Shown piece by piece: positions 5,181-48,714 of a stretch of 64,000 bases of DNA. This DNA is from Thiosulfatimonas sediminis (GTDB lineage: Bacteria > Pseudomonadota > Gammaproteobacteria > Thiomicrospirales > Thiomicrospiraceae): positions 2,046,001 to 2,110,000 of the forward strand of contig NZ_AP021889.1 in NCBI RefSeq assembly GCF_011398355.1. Reading direction: 5' to 3'. The translations under genes were made by a program, and so were the position numbers. Below the pieces are notes generated by a model. That model saw only the letters and a program-made list of their open reading frames with translations, was not told the DNA's origin and searched no databases. The stretch's first letter is position 1; each line of letters starts with the position of its first letter.

Positions 5181-6467
5181 TTAGAAACTTTTCTTAAACC
5201 ACTCTTTTAACGAACGCATCGAATCGAAAATGCTGTCTAAAAACCCTGGGCTATCCGATACAGCCACTGGGTAAATGTGGTTTGGATTGTGGTAGTCGAA
5301 ATTTTGCGATGCGTACTGCAATAATCCAAGTGCCGAAGAGTACTCCGCATTACTCACTTCGTTCAAAATCCCGCCAACAAACATGTCATTTTTTGGCGAG
5401 CCTATTCGCACCGGCATATCAAAAATTTCTTCCGCGAGCGGATTACTGCCAAACATCATTGAAGAACCGCCAGTTATGACAATCCCTGCACCAAACATCT
5501 CTTTCGAAAAACCGTCGCGACGTAAACGTTGCTCGACACTTTCAAATATTTCTTCCATACGTGGGCGAATCACTTCTGAAAGCAGACGTTGATTCAATTT
5601 AAACGGTTCGCGTTCACCGACACGCTGCACATCAAATTCAAAATTTTCTTTGATAAGACTTGGCATTGCACAGCCGTAACGTACTTTAATCTCTTCTGCC
5701 GAATCGGTCGGTGTATTAAAAGCAATCGCAATATCGTTGGTGACGTAGTTACCGGCAATCGGCAGCACCGAGGTATATTGCATCGAACCATTCCGATAGA
5801 CGGTGATGTCGGTCGTGCCGCCGCCAATATCGACCACACAAACCCCTAAAGCTTTTTCGTCATCGCTCAACACCGCTTCACTGGCTGCGTATTGCGCCAA
5901 AACCGGAGTCGCATTTTTTAGCCCAGCGGATTGCACGCATTTTTCAATGTTTCGCACCGCGCTTTCGCTGGCGGTAATAATGTGGGTTTTTACCTCCAAG
6001 CGCTTGCCCACCATACCAACTGGCTCGACAATTCCTTCCTGCATATCCAGAGTAAACTCTTTAGGTAACACGTGCAGCATACGCTCTTCAGACTCAGAGT
6101 ATTTGCCAGTATGAGCTTGCTCGTTAACCCGTCGAATGTCCTCATCGGTCACTTCATCATCAATGGTGATAACCCCATGTGAATTAATGCTTTTTATATG
6201 ACCGCCAGTAATGCCAATATAAGCAGTATCAACGATATCAACACGATAACCAGCCACTTCCAAAGCCTCATGCAAGGCGGTTTCAATCGACTTTTTGGTC
6301 CCTTCGATATGAATCACCACTCCGTTACGCAATCCTTTAGTGCGCACCGATTTGTATCCGCGCACATTAATTACATTACCGGTAATCTCGCCAACAACCG
6401 CTTTGATTTTTGAGGTGCCAATATCCAAACCGACAATGGTTTTTGTACCCGATTGATTACTCGCCAT
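5181..6467 (-). CDS. ftsA: FtsA, actin-like cell division protein
   Basis: Tethers FtsZ to the inner membrane and recruits later divisome proteins. 428 residues, somewhat longer than E. coli FtsA. Visible: the phosphate-1 loop VGLDIGTSKIKAVVGE near residue 13, the phosphate-2 loop CVVDIGGGTTDITVY near 210, an adenosine motif GIVITGGSSMM near 330, and a C-terminal amphipathic membrane helix (SLKEWFKKSF). It follows ftsQ after 87 bases in the usual ddlB-ftsQ-ftsA order. The expected partner ftsZ is not downstream but about 39 kb away at 44712-46094, so FtsA and FtsZ are not co-transcribed here. Confidence 0.97.
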   Translation of the reverse strand: MASNQSGTKTIVGLDIGTSKIKAVVGEITGNVINVRGYKSVRTKGLRNGVVIHIEGTKKSIETALHEALEVAGYRVDIVDTAYIGITGGHIKSINSHGVITIDDEVTDEDIRRVNEQAHTGKYSESEERMLHVLPKEFTLDMQEGIVEPVGMVGKRLEVKTHIITASESAVRNIEKCVQSAGLKNATPVLAQYAASEAVLSDDEKALGVCVVDIGGGTTDITVYRNGSMQYTSVLPIAGNYVTNDIAIAFNTPTDSAEEIKVRYGCAMPSLIKENFEFDVQRVGEREPFKLNQRLLSEVIRPRMEEIFESVEQRLRRDGFSKEMFGAGIVITGGSSMMFGSNPLAEEIFDMPVRIGSPKNDMFVGGILNEVSNAEYSSALGLLQYASQNFDYHNPNHIYPVAVSDSPGFLDSIFDSMRSLKEWFKKSF

Positions 6468-27525: not shown

Positions 27526-28359
27526 CTAGACCGATACTGTCGCTTTAATATGCGGATGAGATTCATAGCCAACGATTTCGAAATCATCGAACTGGTAGTC
27601 GAAAATCGAGTCCGGCTTGCGCTTAATCACCAGTTTTGGCAATGGCATCGGTTCACGAGTCAATTGCAACTTTGCCTGCTCGATGGTGTTGTTATAGAGA
27701 TGCACATCACCACCGGTCCAAACAAATTCACCGACATCGAGATCACATTGTTGCGCAATCATATGCACTAAAAACGCATAGCTGGCGATATTGAACGGCA
27801 CGCCGAGGAAAGTATCGGCACTGCGTTGATACAGCTGACAAGACAGTTTGCCCCCAGCAACATAAAACTGGAAGAAGGCGTGACACGCCGCCAACGCCAT
27901 GCGCCCTTGTTGGACATTCGCTTGTGGTGCAATCGACTCGTCCGGCAAATCTGCCGGGTTCCACGCGGAAACAATCATCCGACGGCTGTTCGGATTGGTT
28001 TTCAGGGTTTGAATCACTTCTTCAATCTGGTTGATGGTGTCGCCGTCCGGCTTCTGCCAAGCGGTCCACTGCTTGCCGTACAACGGGCCGATTCGCCCGT
28101 CCTCAGTCGCCCACTCATCCCAAATGCGCACGCCGTGTTGTTTCAGATACCCAATATCAGTATCGCCTTTTAAGAACCACAACAGCTCGTGCAAGATGGA
28201 TTTGGTATGCAGTTTTTTGGTAGTGACCAACGGAAAACCGTCTTGCAGGTTAAAGCGCATTTGATAGCCGAAAACCGATTTAGTACCTGTGCCGGTGCGG
28301 TCGCCCTTATCAAAACCGTTATCTAAGATATGTTGCAGAAGGTCAAGATACTGACGCAT
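27526..28359 (-). CDS. thyA: ThyA, thymidylate synthase
   Basis: Methylates dUMP to dTMP with methylene-tetrahydrofolate. 277 residues, 13 more than E. coli; the extra residues fall around 139-152, before the active site. Visible: [15 protein letters not shown] start, FGYQMRFNL, the catalytic Cys159 in [12 protein letters not shown] (most enzymes have PCH), [17 protein letters not shown], and GDVHLYNN. In many gammaproteobacteria thyA directly follows lgt; here about 2.5 kb of integron remnant and R-M genes separate them. Confidence 0.97.
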
Positions 28360-28436: not shown

Positions 28437-29423
28437 TTACTCTGACACCTTTATTTTTTTATTTTTCACTAAAATTCTAAAATAGGGGTGCTTTCCATTA
28501 ATAGATAAATCCTTATCGTCATCCCCCTTTCTAAACTTTATTATTTCAAACTGATCAGGGTTGAATTTATGAAGAAATGTTATTGGTACACCCATAACAC
28601 CTTCATAATCTAAAGGTATGTCTTTTGTTTTGTTTACATTAATGCCATCGTAATTATCATACTTAGGATATTCATTTTCGTTGCCATAATACTTTTTAAC
28701 CAACTGAATATCTTCATGCCGCTTGAATGAATCTAAGTTCGTAAGCCACAAGCAATTATTTGGCGACACAATCCTGTTTCCCGACTCATCAATTCTTGCT
28801 TCAGTTCCATAAAGTTCGTAATGTTCAGGAACTATAAATCCAGACACCCCTCTGCCTAAATTAATACCTAGCCATGCCATATTTTCTTTGATTAATTTGA
28901 AAATTTCTTTATAAGTTATCGCATTAACATTTCCGATTATTAAGAACTTCTTATCATGACTAACAAGTTGCTCAACATACTCTCTAAACAGTGAGAATGG
29001 AGGATTTGTAACCACAATATCCGCTTGCTTTAGAAGCTCTAAACTCTCAGCGCTACGAAAGTCACCGTCGCCTTTGAACGGAATAACCTTTATAGATTCT
29101 ATGCTGGACTTCTGCTTAGGCGTATTTTCGTACTCATAGAAAAAACCTCTTTCTGACGATATTTGATTAAATAGGTCTTCGGACTGTTCTCTATAGCAAG
29201 AGGCTATGACTTTTTTAAGCCCTAACTCGTCAAAATTAGAGGCGAAGTATTTGAAAAAATTGCTTATTCTGGGGTCATCACAATTACAAAAAACAACCTT
29301 ATCTTTAAAATGAGGCTTATAGTGCTTCAACTCACTTTCAATATCACAAAGCTGCGTATAGAACTCATCACTCTTTGATTTCTTTGCTTTTTGAAGAAGC
29401 TTATTGGTTGCTTTTCTTGCCAT
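28437..29423 (-). CDS. EcoRI-type adenine-N6 DNA methyltransferase
   Basis: Protects host DNA by methylating the inner adenine of GAATTC, as inferred from the family. 328 residues against 326 for M.EcoRI as I remember it. The start MARKATNKLLQKAKKSKSDE, NCDDPRISNFFKYF, the catalytic motif IV at 140-143 (NPPF, in VVTNPPFSLFREY), RGVSGFIVPEHYELYGTEA, Cys224 in SPNNCLWLTNL and the run NVNKTKDIPLDY all match that protein closely. It follows the nuclease gene by 38 bases, in the same R-then-M order as on the EcoRI plasmid. The region is AT-rich compared with its neighbours. 77 bases separate its stop from thyA, with no attC seen there. Confidence 0.93.
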   Translation of the reverse strand: MARKATNKLLQKAKKSKSDEFYTQLCDIESELKHYKPHFKDKVVFCNCDDPRISNFFKYFASNFDELGLKKVIASCYREQSEDLFNQISSERGFFYEYENTPKQKSSIESIKVIPFKGDGDFRSAESLELLKQADIVVTNPPFSLFREYVEQLVSHDKKFLIIGNVNAITYKEIFKLIKENMAWLGINLGRGVSGFIVPEHYELYGTEARIDESGNRIVSPNNCLWLTNLDSFKRHEDIQLVKKYYGNENEYPKYDNYDGINVNKTKDIPLDYEGVMGVPITFLHKFNPDQFEIIKFRKGDDDKDLSINGKHPYFRILVKNKKIKVSE

Positions 29424-29461
29424 TAAATGTTTGCCTTAAAATTCTATCTTGTGTATCACTA

Positions 29462-30295
29462 TTATTCAGACGTGATCTGAGTAAATAGATCGCTACCTAA
29501 TACTTTTAGTGATGTTTTTGAAACCTCTAACATTATCTTAAACATATCTTCAGTGGCCCACTTCTCTCCAGTCCCTTGAGTATAGATAGAGGCCGCTTGA
29601 AGCATAATGGTTTTATTTTTGTGTTTAACAAACTTGTTAACGCATAAATTCTTGTTTATAGGCATTCCATAATTTGCAGATGTCAACCTATCTAACCTAT
29701 TCAGCATGCCAGAATTATACTCAAGGGTTACAACTCTACCGTCAGGCCTAGATATTGAAATTGTTTCTATAAGAAAATTTGATCCTTCCAAGAATAATAT
29801 ATAAGGAAAATGATTTTCAGATAGCATGAAGTTTGCTATTTCTGAAATATTTTTATGAGATCGCTCTATAGCATTGCCCGCTGCCATTAGATCTTGGTTG
29901 TTTTTAGCTCCTACCAACTGGCCATTCTGGATATTTTCTATATCCTTACCTTGGTGCTTGGCTTCTGTTACCAGAATTACCCTCCACTCGTCATTATCAT
30001 CTTTTACTTCAATAATTCCGCCGTCAGGTTTAATGCTTGAATTAACAACAAATAAAGTCTGCCCCAATTCAGGATCAACTTTTCTTAGTGATTCATTTAT
30101 TTCTTCTTTCTTTAAGCTATTTCTATACCGAAAAGATAGGCTTGGGTATTCCTTATCAAGCTCTTCCATAACCAACTTGGATATTTTTCCAACAGTTAGA
30201 TCGTGTGATTTGGCCTGTTCTCCAAATATACCAACAACACCTTGAGATTGCTTATGTTGGCTGGTTAGTCTATTCGACTGATTCTTTTTTGCCAT
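29462..30295 (-). CDS. EcoRI-type restriction endonuclease
   Basis: Type II nuclease predicted to cut GAATTC. 277 residues, exactly the length of EcoRI. Catalytic residues fall at the same numbers: Asp91 (KPDGGI), Glu111 and Lys113 (TEAKHQG). The base-reading segment AAGNAIERSH places Asn141, Glu144 and Arg145, with Met137, Ala138 and Ala142, as in EcoRI; Arg200 and Arg203 are also kept. Substitutions are mild (for example Met197 for Ile). From memory I judge the two proteins to be well over half identical, closer than RsrI. A sampled stretch (29461-29520) is 19/60 G+C against 32/60 in nearby lgt, a sign of transfer. It follows an attC site by 46 bases. Confidence 0.95.
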   Translation of the reverse strand: MAKKNQSNRLTSQHKQSQGVVGIFGEQAKSHDLTVGKISKLVMEELDKEYPSLSFRYRNSLKKEEINESLRKVDPELGQTLFVVNSSIKPDGGIIEVKDDNDEWRVILVTEAKHQGKDIENIQNGQLVGAKNNQDLMAAGNAIERSHKNISEIANFMLSENHFPYILFLEGSNFLIETISISRPDGRVVTLEYNSGMLNRLDRLTSANYGMPINKNLCVNKFVKHKNKTIMLQAASIYTQGTGEKWATEDMFKIMLEVSKTSLKVLGSDLFTQITSE

Positions 30296-30341
30296 TTTAT
30301 AAAATTCCGTTATTTATCGACTGAAATTTGAGCTCTTGAGC

Positions 30342-30402
30342 TTATAACGTTTACGCTAACCGGCCGCGCGTTAGCGCGGTCGGGTTGAGTGAATTGTTAG
30401 GC
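30342..30402 (-). repeat. attC site (integron cassette recombination site)
   Basis: 61 bases. On the minus strand it starts GCCTAAC (fits RYYYAAC) and ends GTTATAA. The inside is an imperfect inverted repeat: TTCACTCAACCCGACCGCGC against GCGCGGCCGGTTAGCGTAA, with one unpaired base as expected for attC strand choice. It begins three bases after the stop of the upstream cassette gene, the usual cassette layout. The end box departs from GTTRRRY but resembles boxes of marine chromosomal integrons. Confidence 0.82.
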
Positions 30403-30405
30403 ATC

Positions 30406-30636
30406 TCAGCCTTTATAAACCAAGAATTTTGATGCTTTTCTATTGCCAGCAATATGCAAAAGTAAATACAAACGCTTTCCGCCAAGAGCTTTGTGCCCCC
30501 AGTCAAAATGGTATTGTTCTCTAAAACTTAATATGATGCTTGAATGAGCTGGAATGCATTTATCACTTACATCGTCTTCTGGGTTTTCATTTCTATAAGG
30601 AACCCATTTCATTCCTTTTTTCTTACAAAACAACAA
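30406..30636 (-). CDS. Small cassette gene, unknown function
   Basis: Up to 76 residues from a TTG at 30636, or 68 from the ATG at 30612 (MKWVPYRNENPEDD). I do not recognise it. It is a soluble-looking basic and aromatic protein (FREQYHFDWGHKALGG, LYLLLHIAGNRKASKFLVYKG). The stop lies three bases before attC, which marks it as a cassette gene. Neither start has a well-spaced ribosome site, and the frame stays open upstream to 30685 across the junction with the integrase remnant, so the 5' end may have been lost or altered by the rearrangement. Confidence 0.5.
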   Translation of the reverse strand: MLFCKKKGMKWVPYRNENPEDDVSDKCIPAHSSIILSFREQYHFDWGHKALGGKRLYLLLHIAGNRKASKFLVYKG

Positions 30637-30653
30637 TTCCCAGTAAGTTACTA

Positions 30654-30671
30654 TAATAAAGGTAATAAAGG
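30654..30671. repeat. 9-base tandem repeat at the integron junction
   Basis: TAATAAAGG occurs twice in tandem, directly beside the point where integrase similarity begins (30673). It may be a scar of the deletion that removed the integrase 5' end. Confidence 0.6.
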
Positions 30672-30672
30672 T

Positions 30673-30762
30673 GTCGGAGTAAAATTAACGATGATTTATA
30701 CCCATGTGTTAAATCAGGGTGGTCAAGGTGTCATTAGTCCTTTTGACCAACTTTACATTTAA
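30673..30762 (+). pseudogene. intI: Integron integrase (intI) C-terminal remnant
   Basis: 29 codons in frame to a TAA stop. The segment TMIYTHVLNQGGQGVISP is the C terminus of IntI tyrosine recombinases; the Tyr in MIYTHV is the nucleophile position (Tyr312 of IntI1), and the GGxGVxSP tail is typical of integron integrases. Everything upstream of about 30673 is unrelated sequence, so at least nine tenths of the gene is gone. The Arg-His-Arg catalytic residues are lost, so it cannot be active. Confidence 0.85.
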
Positions 30763-30840: not shown

Positions 30841-31635
30841 TTAACCTTTAGCCTGTTTGCGATAGGCATACCCAATTAAGCCAGCACCGATAAGAATCAT
30901 CGGCGTCGAGAGTATCTGCCCCATGGTCACCCAATCAAACAGCAGGTAGCCGAGTTGTTGATCAGGCACGCGCCAGAATTCGACTATAAAACGGAAGGTG
31001 CCGTAACCGACTAAGAACAAGCCGGCAACACTGCCTGCCGGACGCGGTTTGCGCGCGAACCATAAAAGCAGAATCAGTAGCACCAAGCCTTCCAGTAAAG
31101 CTTCGAGCAGTTGCGTCGGATATTTGGTCACCGTCGCTTGCAGATAAGGGTCATACACTGCCATGCCCAGCGGTGAGTCGGTGACCTTGCCCCAAAGTTC
31201 GCCATTGATGAAATTGCCGATTCTTCCCGTCAGCAGACCGATCGGCACTAAAGGCGCGACAAAATCGCCGACCTGTAACAGGCTTTGATGGGTTTTACGT
31301 GCAAACAGAATCAATGCGATTGTCACTCCAAGCAGACCGCCGTGGAAGGACATTCCGCCCTGCCAGACTTTGAAAACATCCAGTGGCGCTTCAATATAGT
31401 GCGCCAAATCATAAAATAGGATATAGCCGATACGACCGCCAGCAATCACCCCTAAGGCAACATAAAACAACAGGTCACCAACCATCTCGCTGTTCCAAGG
31501 TGCGCGACTTTTGGCGCGGTATACACCCAGCGCCCACCCGCCGACAAAGGCGATCAAGTACATCAAGCCGTACCAATGAATTTGCAAAGGCCCCAAAGCC
31601 AGCGCGACCGGATCAATTTCAGGATAAGACCACAT
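30841..31635 (-). CDS. lgt: Lgt, prolipoprotein diacylglyceryl transferase
   Basis: Transfers diacylglycerol from phosphatidylglycerol to the lipobox cysteine of prolipoproteins at the inner membrane. 264 residues from the ATG at 31635 (MWSYPEIDPVALALGPLQIHWYG), the usual Lgt start; an upstream ATG at 31722 would add 29 unrelated residues. Seven membrane segments; the signature GRIGNFINGELWGKVTD near 130-146 and MSFHGGLLGV near 95-104 are visible. A GAATTC site lies at 30976. Downstream of it is the integron remnant instead of thyA. Confidence 0.95.
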   Translation of the reverse strand: MWSYPEIDPVALALGPLQIHWYGLMYLIAFVGGWALGVYRAKSRAPWNSEMVGDLLFYVALGVIAGGRIGYILFYDLAHYIEAPLDVFKVWQGGMSFHGGLLGVTIALILFARKTHQSLLQVGDFVAPLVPIGLLTGRIGNFINGELWGKVTDSPLGMAVYDPYLQATVTKYPTQLLEALLEGLVLLILLLWFARKPRPAGSVAGLFLVGYGTFRFIVEFWRVPDQQLGYLLFDWVTMGQILSTPMILIGAGLIGYAYRKQAKG

Positions 31636-31749
31636 AAGCTGTTTACATCCAACTAAAGCATAAAAAATGTTATCGGCATAATACCAAAAAAGCGCAAAAC
31701 CCGAGACAGGCATTGCGCTCAAGAGCCCAAAAAACGGGCTGATAGAGGA

Positions 31750-44711: not shown

Positions 44712-46094
44712 TTAGTCTTTTTGACGACGCAAGAAAGCCGGAATATCCAAAAGTGCGCTTTGCGGAACACCATTGGCTCTTTCTACCATTGCGGCACTAA
44801 CTTGCTCTCTGGCTTCTTGATCAATGCGTTGTTGTTGAAGCGTTGTGTTCACTTCCGTACGCATTACAGGATTCCCGTGAACATTGTAAACCGGCTCCTG
44901 CATAACAACTCGTTCAGCTTGCGGTGCATAGGACGCTTGCATCGGTTCTACTGAGTGCTGCATCACCGGCTGAGTCTGATAATTTGGCGTTACGGCTGCA
45001 CCAGACTGCGTATGGTAGCTAGGTGGCTGATGGACTGGTGCTTCGGCTTGCGAGTTTTGGTGCATTTGCGTGACCGCGCTGTTAAGACCAGTACTTCGTG
45101 CCGCCATTTGTGGGGCCACAACTTGCTCTTCGCGCTTGGTCAAACCAGTTGCAACCACGGTAACACGAATTTCATCATTCATGCTCTCGTCCAGTGAGTT
45201 ACCAATAATAACCTTTGCATCTGGCGCCGCGACTTGGTCAATGACATCACCAACTGCATTGAACTCTGCAATCGTCAGATTAGGGCCGGAGGTAACATTA
45301 ATCAAAATACCTTTCGCGCCGGAAACTTCAATGTCATCAAGCAGAGGATGAGCAACGGCTTTTTTGGTCGCTTTAATCGCACGGTCTTCACCCGTTGCAT
45401 GACCAACACCCATCAACGCCATACCACGCTCCGACATTACGGTACGCAAATCTTCAAAATCGACATTGATTAAACCCGGACGAGTCACCAATTCGGTAAT
45501 CCCTTGCACAGCAGATAACAGAATTTCGTTCGCGTAGTTAAAGGCGTTATTTAGGGTAAAGTCATCACCAACAATCTGTTGTAGCTTGTCATTTGGAATG
45601 GTAATCAACGAATCAACGTGTTGCGTCAGCTCTTCAATACCCGCTTCCGCGGCACGACCGCGACGCTCATAGCTAAATGGCTTAGATACAACACCGACAA
45701 CTAAAACACCCATTTCGCGAGCCAATTGAGCCACGACAGGAGCAGAACCCGTCCCTGTTCCACCACCCATACCGGCGGCCAAGAACAACATATCCGCGCC
45801 TTCAATTTCACGTTTCAACAACTCAAGAGAATCGCGTGTTGCCATGCGACCTTTTTCAGGATCAGCACCCGCACCTAGCCCTTTCTCGCCCAACTGAATA
45901 CGCTTTTGGACACGTGAATGAGCAAGCGCTTGCGCATCGGTATTCGCAACAAGGAAATCGACACCTTCGATGGTATTTTCCATCATATAGTTGACGGCGT
46001 TACCGCCTCCGCCACCAAGGCCAATTACCTTAATAACCGGCATCCCGGCTTGTCGAATATCGCTCACTGGTGCATCTTCTGAAATAAACTTCAT
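44712..46094 (-). CDS. ftsZ: FtsZ, tubulin-like division ring protein, in an unusual place
   Basis: GTPase that forms the cytokinetic ring. 460 residues. Visible: VIGLGGGGGNAVNYM near 23-37, the tubulin signature GGGTGTG at 110-116, the T7 loop NVDFEDLRTVM at 210-220, a long Gln/Pro/Met-rich linker from about 320 to 430, and the C-terminal LLDIPAFLRRQ peptide that binds FtsA and ZipA. A GAGAGGG ribosome site precedes the ATG, 16 bases after rsmH. In nearly all gammaproteobacteria ftsZ follows ftsA; here it is third in the cluster, behind the MraZ operator, while ftsA lies 39 kb away. No second ftsZ is in the window. Confidence 0.97.
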   Translation of the reverse strand: MKFISEDAPVSDIRQAGMPVIKVIGLGGGGGNAVNYMMENTIEGVDFLVANTDAQALAHSRVQKRIQLGEKGLGAGADPEKGRMATRDSLELLKREIEGADMLFLAAGMGGGTGTGSAPVVAQLAREMGVLVVGVVSKPFSYERRGRAAEAGIEELTQHVDSLITIPNDKLQQIVGDDFTLNNAFNYANEILLSAVQGITELVTRPGLINVDFEDLRTVMSERGMALMGVGHATGEDRAIKATKKAVAHPLLDDIEVSGAKGILINVTSGPNLTIAEFNAVGDVIDQVAAPDAKVIIGNSLDESMNDEIRVTVVATGLTKREEQVVAPQMAARSTGLNSAVTQMHQNSQAEAPVHQPPSYHTQSGAAVTPNYQTQPVMQHSVEPMQASYAPQAERVVMQEPVYNVHGNPVMRTEVNTTLQQQRIDQEAREQVSAAMVERANGVPQSALLDIPAFLRRQKD

Positions 46095-47572: not shown

Positions 47573-48339
47573 TTGTTGGATGTAATGATATTCACCTACG
47601 CCACTAGAGTCAACTGCGTAACTCTCATAAAACCCTTAGAAAACCTTTTGATGACAATGACTTAGAAGACATTCCATACTCCCTAAAAGCCAAAAACAAC
47701 AAAGAAAATATGTTTTTTTCTCTTTTCTTTCAATCAATTAGGGACATTTCCAACAAACAACCTTAAACAAGGTTAATAAATAAGCAATAATTAACCTGCA
47801 AAAACAAAGGCTATCTCAAAAACGAAAAACTCCATACATATGGGGTAAATTTTCAATGCAAAAACAACATATTGTGTCTATAAAAAAATTTTCAAAAAAA
47901 CACTCTTTTTTTTTAACCTTTTTTTCACCACTTTGCCACTCGATTACTGATACATTTTTCAAAAAAACAGCCAACTTATTACCAGCAGTCGATATAAGTA
48001 AAGAAATCACCCTCTATACGACTATATACCCATTCTTTTTAGGCACAAATGTGCCACAAAACGCCCTACCCAGAACAGCACAATGAGCACGAGCAATCAA
48101 TCGACAAATCACTTAAGTTATTACGGAGAAAAGATAGAGGATTTCTGAGCCGTCTATTCGAACGAATCATTTGATAAGAATCGGTTCAAGAGTTGAGATA
48201 AAACCATACCCTAAAGGCGTAAAAAAACGCCGAGAGGTTTCTAAGAAAGCAATGCCATGAAAATGGCTTAGTGGAAATATAAACTAGAAGGATTTCCCCA
48301 CAGGCACACGGTTTGTATGCCATGCAAGAAAATTGAATG
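47573..48339. other. 767-base intergenic stretch between the mraZ operator and rnpB
   Basis: No gene supported. The stretch 47650-48060 is very AT-rich, with long A and T runs, and short frames on both strands look random. The mraZ promoter must lie at its left end. Near 48220-48235 there is a GGCGT/ACGCC hairpin with a T-rich loop, and near 48255 a GCCATTTTCATGGC hairpin; both lie downstream of rnpB and could relate to its 3' end or termination. Confidence 0.5.

Positions 48340-48714
<375 letters not shown>

Follow-up and report, generated by a model that had tools for sequence, protein, structure and literature searches.

The chromosome of Thiosulfatimonas sediminis holds, between lgt and thyA, what is very probably a former integron cassette with an EcoRI-type restriction–modification (R-M) pair, stranded after the collapse of its integron and probably active. 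The pair lies in a window of 64,000 nt (GCF_011398355.1, NZ_AP021889.1, positions 2,046,001–2,110,000), the whole stretch of DNA that was analysed, to which the plain coordinates below refer. Its 2.72-Mb genome is labelled G000, and G013 is the sister genome, whose ThyA is 93% identical to that of G000.

The element between lgt and thyA

Read from lgt to thyA, the locus contains the tail of an integron integrase gene (intI), a copy of a REP-like repeat, an ORF of 76 aa, an attC site, the endonuclease gene (R), the methyltransferase gene (M) and a second repeat copy. The chromosomal flanks thyA (27526–28359; PF00303, E=9.9e-120) and lgt (30841–31722; PF01790, E=2.3e-76) are both located on the minus strand, and the intI tail is on the plus strand. 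An integrase gene is expected on the strand opposite its cassettes, as the intI tail is here. The GC content is 35% in the element versus 46% in the window. The preliminary description had placed the integrase remnant, a cassette ORF, attC and the R-M pair in the order and orientations of an integron, and profile and model matches confirm this arrangement. Elsewhere, the window contains a class A RNase P RNA gene (48339–48712, minus strand).

The EcoRI-type pair

R and M adjoin on one strand, with a profile match to PF02963 next to one to PF13651. R (29462–30295, minus strand; PF02963, E=2.9e-147) encodes a restriction endonuclease of 277 aa, whose residues 2–275 align without gaps with E. coli EcoRI (PDB 1ckq) and which is 75% identical to the E. 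coli plasmid copies. The PDG...EAK and GNAIER stretches are retained relative to 1ckq, including D91, E111, K113, N141, A142 and R145, which we take to be the residues of catalysis and GAATTC recognition. M (28437–29423, minus strand; PF13651, E=6.4e-135) encodes an adenine methyltransferase of 328 aa with a TNPPF motif. Each of the two genes has a complete reading frame; that of M takes its last codons and its stop from the REP-like repeat at 28437–28455. Judged by its sequence, the pair appears to encode an intact GAATTC endonuclease and methylase.

The plasmid-borne EcoRI system of E. coli (PDB 1ckq/1eri) has the same R-then-M order, whereas the window pair is chromosomal and sits beside an attC site and an integrase remnant. 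A promoter scan found 7 candidates against 8.5 expected in shuffled sequences. EcoRI is described as having its own promoters (PMC3874152), so that a cassette-borne pair could be expressed without an integron promoter. The EcoRI R gene was absent from all 57 other genomes searched, and among 397 other genomes of a phylum sample two were found to carry only distantly related ones.

The integrase remnant and its site in relatives

The plus-strand ORF ending at 30762 matches positions 291–315 of the 315-position integron integrase profile TIGR02249 (E=8.7e-7). Its true intI part (30689–30762) comprises about 22 codons, with 67 nt aligned at 97% identity to the intI of G013, and the codons preceding it are read from the repeat. 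The 29-codon remnant noticed earlier does match IntI and aligns with the complete gene that the sister has at the same site, but about 22 of its codons are true intI and the rest come from the repeat. The 5' part of intI, beside which attI lies, is absent from the window. The locus lacks a functional intI. The best TIGR02249 match in G000 reaches 77.3 bits, below the cut-off of 265, and G000 thus shows no sign of an integrase able to move the pair.

In G013 a complete intI (TIGR02249, 430.5 bits) is located between lgt and thyA in the same direction. Among 24 same-genus relatives searched for thyA, loci were taken for 21; lgt and thyA are adjacent, 14–193 nt apart, in 18 of these, G013 has the integron, and in L043 and L059 lgt falls outside the piece compared. 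Outside the genus the gap measures 5–327 nt in seven of eight loci, the eighth being a piece (L062) that does not contain lgt. Among the genomes showing both genes together, an integron at this site is found only in G000 and G013. The comparison with relatives that the preliminary description proposed has yielded both the complete integrase gene, in the sister genome, and the two genes side by side, in other members of the genus.

Clusters of attC sites lacking an integron integrase are defined as CALINs in PMC9892861. Like a CALIN, the window has attC and no working intI; unlike one, it keeps a single attC site and a recognisable intI tail where the sister has the complete gene. The intI genes of G013 (L069) and G011 (L088) are 88% identical in DNA and the thyA genes 77%, which could mean transfer of the integrase between species or its slow evolution. 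The G013 integron contains about 3 kb of genes (L069, 6299–9226), by eye including sigma-factor-like and cytochrome-like ones. Over this stretch the attC model R1 described below has no more matches after a single one at 6094–6187.

The attC site and the 76-aa ORF

The attC site belongs to the upstream, 76-aa cassette and occupies 30342–30402 on the minus strand, its bottom strand being the plus strand of the window. A blastn search with this site found closely similar sites in arrays of same-genus genomes: 98% identical in G027, 94% in G015, 91% in G019, 93–96% among the top five of G030, and down to 80% for the others. Of these, 19 sites from six genomes, 80–98% identical over 44–59 nt, were aligned with the window's own site excluded, and the covariance model R1 was built from them. 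It matches the window at 30342–30402(+) with 82.8 bits (E=1.8e-22) and gives 0.01 on the other strand. Over the 2.72 Mb of G000, with 150 of 1109 first-look candidates scored, the window attC was the sole match at E<=0.1. When the site is folded by itself, z is -3.1 for its bottom strand and -1.9 for its top strand. The right-hand box of the window site, GTTATAA, is unusual; two R1 training sites start with TTATAAC, and the box therefore occurs in the genus too. The attC of the preliminary description is thereby borne out by a model from whose training the window was excluded.

A strict attC pattern scan of ten loci recovered few sites. The second model R2, which has sites from L026, L027 and L036 in its training and whose matches at those loci are circular and were left unused, found the same attC in the window and a weak match at 44900–44995 (E=0.72), which is taken as chance.

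The crossover point of the attC site (G|TTATAA) is followed by a 52-nt leader (30296–30347, minus strand) up to the R start; by its sequence, this leader would be the 5' end of the R-M cassette. On the other side of attC, the 76-aa ORF (30406–30636, minus strand, from translation) is in cassette position and possibly cut at its 5' end. It has no Pfam or NCBIfam match and one weak relative in the 57 other genomes (39% over 54 aa, G037:C10:13064-13225), which makes its status as a gene less sure.

Repeats at the breakpoints

A 19-nt inverted repeat (28437–28455 and 30664–30682), which the preliminary description does not mention, bounds both ends of a 2.25-kb segment. On the intI side, a repeat search places the 25-nt repeat AATAAAGGTGTCRGAGTAAAATTAA (30664–30688, plus strand) directly beside the intI tail. 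On the thyA side, its inverted 19-nt copy (28437–28455, minus strand), found by the inverted-repeat search, adjoins the region upstream of thyA and replaces the end of M. The repeat pattern recurs at three further places in G000 with at most 3 mismatches, and at two of these the match is exact. In G013 the site between lgt and thyA has two repeat copies 141 nt apart, which precede a gene resembling REP-associated tyrosine transposases (NF047646, E=6.4e-22, 78 bits against a cut-off of 80). Deletions ending at REP-like repeats would be the simplest account of the truncations, as judged by the breakpoints only. We also considered that the segment might have flipped between its inverted repeats and rejected this, because the genes and attC have canonical orientation to intI.

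Searches of the window with R1 and R2 found no attC of the pair's own downstream of M. The pair would hence be an ex-cassette that can no longer be moved. The earlier view of it as cassette cargo keeps its integron origin, but the cassette state belongs to the past. A decayed integrase is also found in another genome of the genus (L086, G030:C1:963000-982900); at least seven attC sites adjoin it, and the GTCAGAGTAAAATTAAA motif occurs four times among these.

Scarcity of GAATTC sites

Counts of 64 palindromes were compared with Markov expectations in 464 kb of G000 (20 pieces and the window), 168 kb of G013 and 340 kb of G019. GAATTC has the lowest z of the 64 in G000, with 27 sites seen and 107.5 expected (z -9.5, ratio 0.25); AAATTT and ATCGAT follow with z -8.8 each and ratios of 0.73 and 0.62. 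With the window left out, GAATTC still ranks first (22 seen, 91.0 expected). In G013 it ranks 26th (60 seen, 70.3 expected), or 23rd with one added piece (63 and 75.3). Counted in one 28-kb piece of that genome, it has 5 sites against 10.7 expected. In G019 it ranks 41st (27 and 34.9) and is not called avoided by the Markov test.

Whole-genome counts give 220 GAATTC sites in G000 (2.72 Mb) and 947 in G013 (2.8 Mb), the control CTTAAG occurring 600 and 599 times. GAATTC density in G000 is the lowest of 21 same-genus genomes counted, itself included. Low counts per Mb are likewise seen in G019, G017 and G001, of which G019 was the one covered by the Markov test. Site avoidance is described as tracking the lifespan of orthodox type II R-M systems in a genome, and it may be the trace of a lost system (PMC4687349). 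Taken with the intact frames, the scarcity suggests that the pair is long resident and has long been active, and it is probably active now.

Other palindromes are scarce in the relatives. In G013 (L069, L087 and L142–L149, 182 kb) CTGCAG has the lowest z, with 17 seen and 57.2 expected, as though this genome had been exposed to a PstI-type system. In G019 (L125–L141, 340 kb) GGCGCC is strongly depleted (45 seen, 133.8 expected); a broken intI and attC sites are present there too (L084).

EcoRI-type pairs in other genomes

A scan of genome contigs gave 13 other EcoRI loci. Searched together with the sister locus (133.7 kb, E<=1), they yielded four R1 matches: L036 (9.5e-8), L026 (3.9e-4), L027 (1.8e-3) and the sister (7.2e-3). 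In each of the three EcoRI loci, no more than about 50 nt separate the match from the R-M pair. In L026, from a gammaproteobacterial MAG, a divergent integrase of 324 aa (TIGR02249, 436.1 bits) is located 299 nt before the R start, and M ends inside attC. This pair apparently holds the place of first cassette behind a full integron integrase.

The two ends of a cassette derive from one recombination site and are expected to be complementary. Complementary ends of 8–10 nt were found in five of the 12 other genomic pairs tested (L026, L027, L029, L031 and L036; p 0.004–0.043 each, uncorrected over 12 tests, mononucleotide shuffles) and were absent in the remaining seven; L028, in which M runs off the contig, and L104 were left out. 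The window pair, whose downstream end is lost, has 5 nt of complementarity (shuffle p 0.46). The distance from crossover to R is 56–105 nt in the five pairs with cassette ends. In L036 the G before the upstream end is missing, and an attC site therefore seems not to precede that pair. Among attC candidates whose bounds were set by eye, those of L031 (z -4.1 and -2.3 on the two sides), L027 (-2.5) and L038 (-2.9) fold well, those of L026 (z -0.73), L036 (-0.14) and L029 (-0.39) are not distinct from shuffles, and that of L030 folds worse than shuffles (z +1.82).

EcoRI R occurs on 19 plasmid records, and six loci from these were searched with R1. None of the six gave a match, the stretches of L096 and L101 ending before one flank of the pair. 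R1 likewise found nothing at L104, a pair on a viral contig, or at L094 and L095, which are distant relatives. Because the model is tuned to a single genus, missing matches elsewhere are weak evidence. Three plasmid pairs have end complementarity of only 6, 3 and 3 nt. In L030, L036, L037 and L038 the R frame is interrupted or short and M aligns over nearly its full length; either R decays before M in these loci or the MAGs contain errors. A tree of 18 R proteins, from which L036, L037 and L038 were left out for their interrupted R frames, resolves little, with a star at three of its 15 inner branches, and we make no claim on the direction of transfer.

The earlier account had singled out an EcoRI-type pair as a distinctive cassette case. 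It does stand beside a dead integrase, but such cassette pairs are not one-off, as L026 and others indicate. That account had also considered that the same pair might turn up elsewhere among unrelated flanks and without attC; similar pairs were found with attC flanks.

Discussion

As reconstructed from both genomes, the ancestor of the species and its sister would have had an integron in the chromosome, with lgt on one side and thyA on the other. An EcoRI-type cassette very probably then joined the array, taking its place after one that has left its attC behind. Deletions at REP-like copies would later have taken nearly all of intI together with the attI side and whatever cassettes came first, and on the other side the R-M cassette's own attC with any following cassettes. 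That lost downstream attC would have begun with the complement of GTTATAAG. Among 57 other genomes and 397 in the phylum sample, no relative has the pair with an intact attC at the lgt–thyA site. The cassette state is a reconstruction, since the window pair has neither its own attC nor complementary ends. The pair would now be locked in the chromosome, where no integron integrase above the cut-off is left to move it. Its persistence may be best explained by defence together with self-addiction, in which cells that lost the pair would have unmethylated sites open to attack by leftover endonuclease. Self-addiction is described for type II systems including EcoRI (PMC3874152). Of the earlier picture of a self-addictive module that outlived its carrier, the loss of the carrier is thus supported, but self-addiction is presumed here.

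The repeats also allow for another origin, in which pair and repeats arrived together on a mobile segment, REP-flanked or of another kind, which happened to land beside the attC of a decaying integron. The inverted 19-nt repeats around the 2.25-kb segment and the missing attC of the pair would fit such an event, as would the pairs elsewhere that show no cassette ends (six of six plasmid loci by R1, seven of 12 genomic pairs by end complementarity). However, the segment also encloses attC and the 76-aa ORF, correctly oriented to intI; R starts 52 nt from the crossover, close to the distances of pairs with cassette ends; the EcoRI pairs of L026, L027, L029, L031 and L036 have such ends; and a tblastn search of other repeat copies (L001, L002, L004, L071 and L072) detected neither EcoRI R nor M. 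We consider this origin unlikely. That the hairpin and the intI tail resemble integron parts by chance has practically no probability left: the remnant is short, but this reading is refuted by the E-value of attC and by how closely the tail matches the intI that the sister has there.

The R-M genes might instead be an old, non-functional relic, the scarcity of GAATTC reflecting another cause or past activity. Broken or shortened R frames occur in L030, L036, L037 and L038 (unless these are MAG errors), GAATTC density is low in other members of the genus, and avoidance left behind by lost systems is reported (PMC4687349). Yet both frames are complete in the window, the six residues compared with 1ckq are retained, and GAATTC has the lowest z in G000 and not in the sister, which renders a relic very improbable. 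A stranded and probably active former cassette is the reading that we retain.

R-M systems as cassettes of chromosomal integrons (super-integrons) were reportedly described by Rowe-Magnus and by Vaisvila in 2001. In those, as in the window, an R-M pair stands in cassette position with attC; the window pair differs in being of the EcoRI family, in having lost its own attC and in that its carrier integron is destroyed. The occurrence of R-M systems in integrons is described in PMC4176335, PMC3874152 and PMC9892861, and defence genes are over-represented among integron genes according to PMC7370490, in whose main text the term 'EcoRI' is absent. R-M cassettes are thus already known; we found no description of EcoRI-family ones in integrons in the open-licence literature, and the comparative evidence for the present case is unusually full.

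A wider view, which we offer tentatively and regard as possible rather than probable, is that the EcoRI family travels as an integron cassette and has spread in this way across several phyla, with integrons as a main natural vehicle. The plasmid EcoRI of E. coli would then descend from a branch that had departed from integrons, while in chromosomes the pair would stay on, together with its site-avoidance footprint, once the integron has died. Three stages can be set side by side, namely an apparent first cassette in L026, a complete intI at the same site without the pair in G013, and in G000 a pair outliving its integron, in a genome where its GAATTC sites are markedly scarce. They give the best-known restriction system a mode of spread not found described in the open-licence literature, and they make testable the old idea that addictive R-M modules outlast their carriers.
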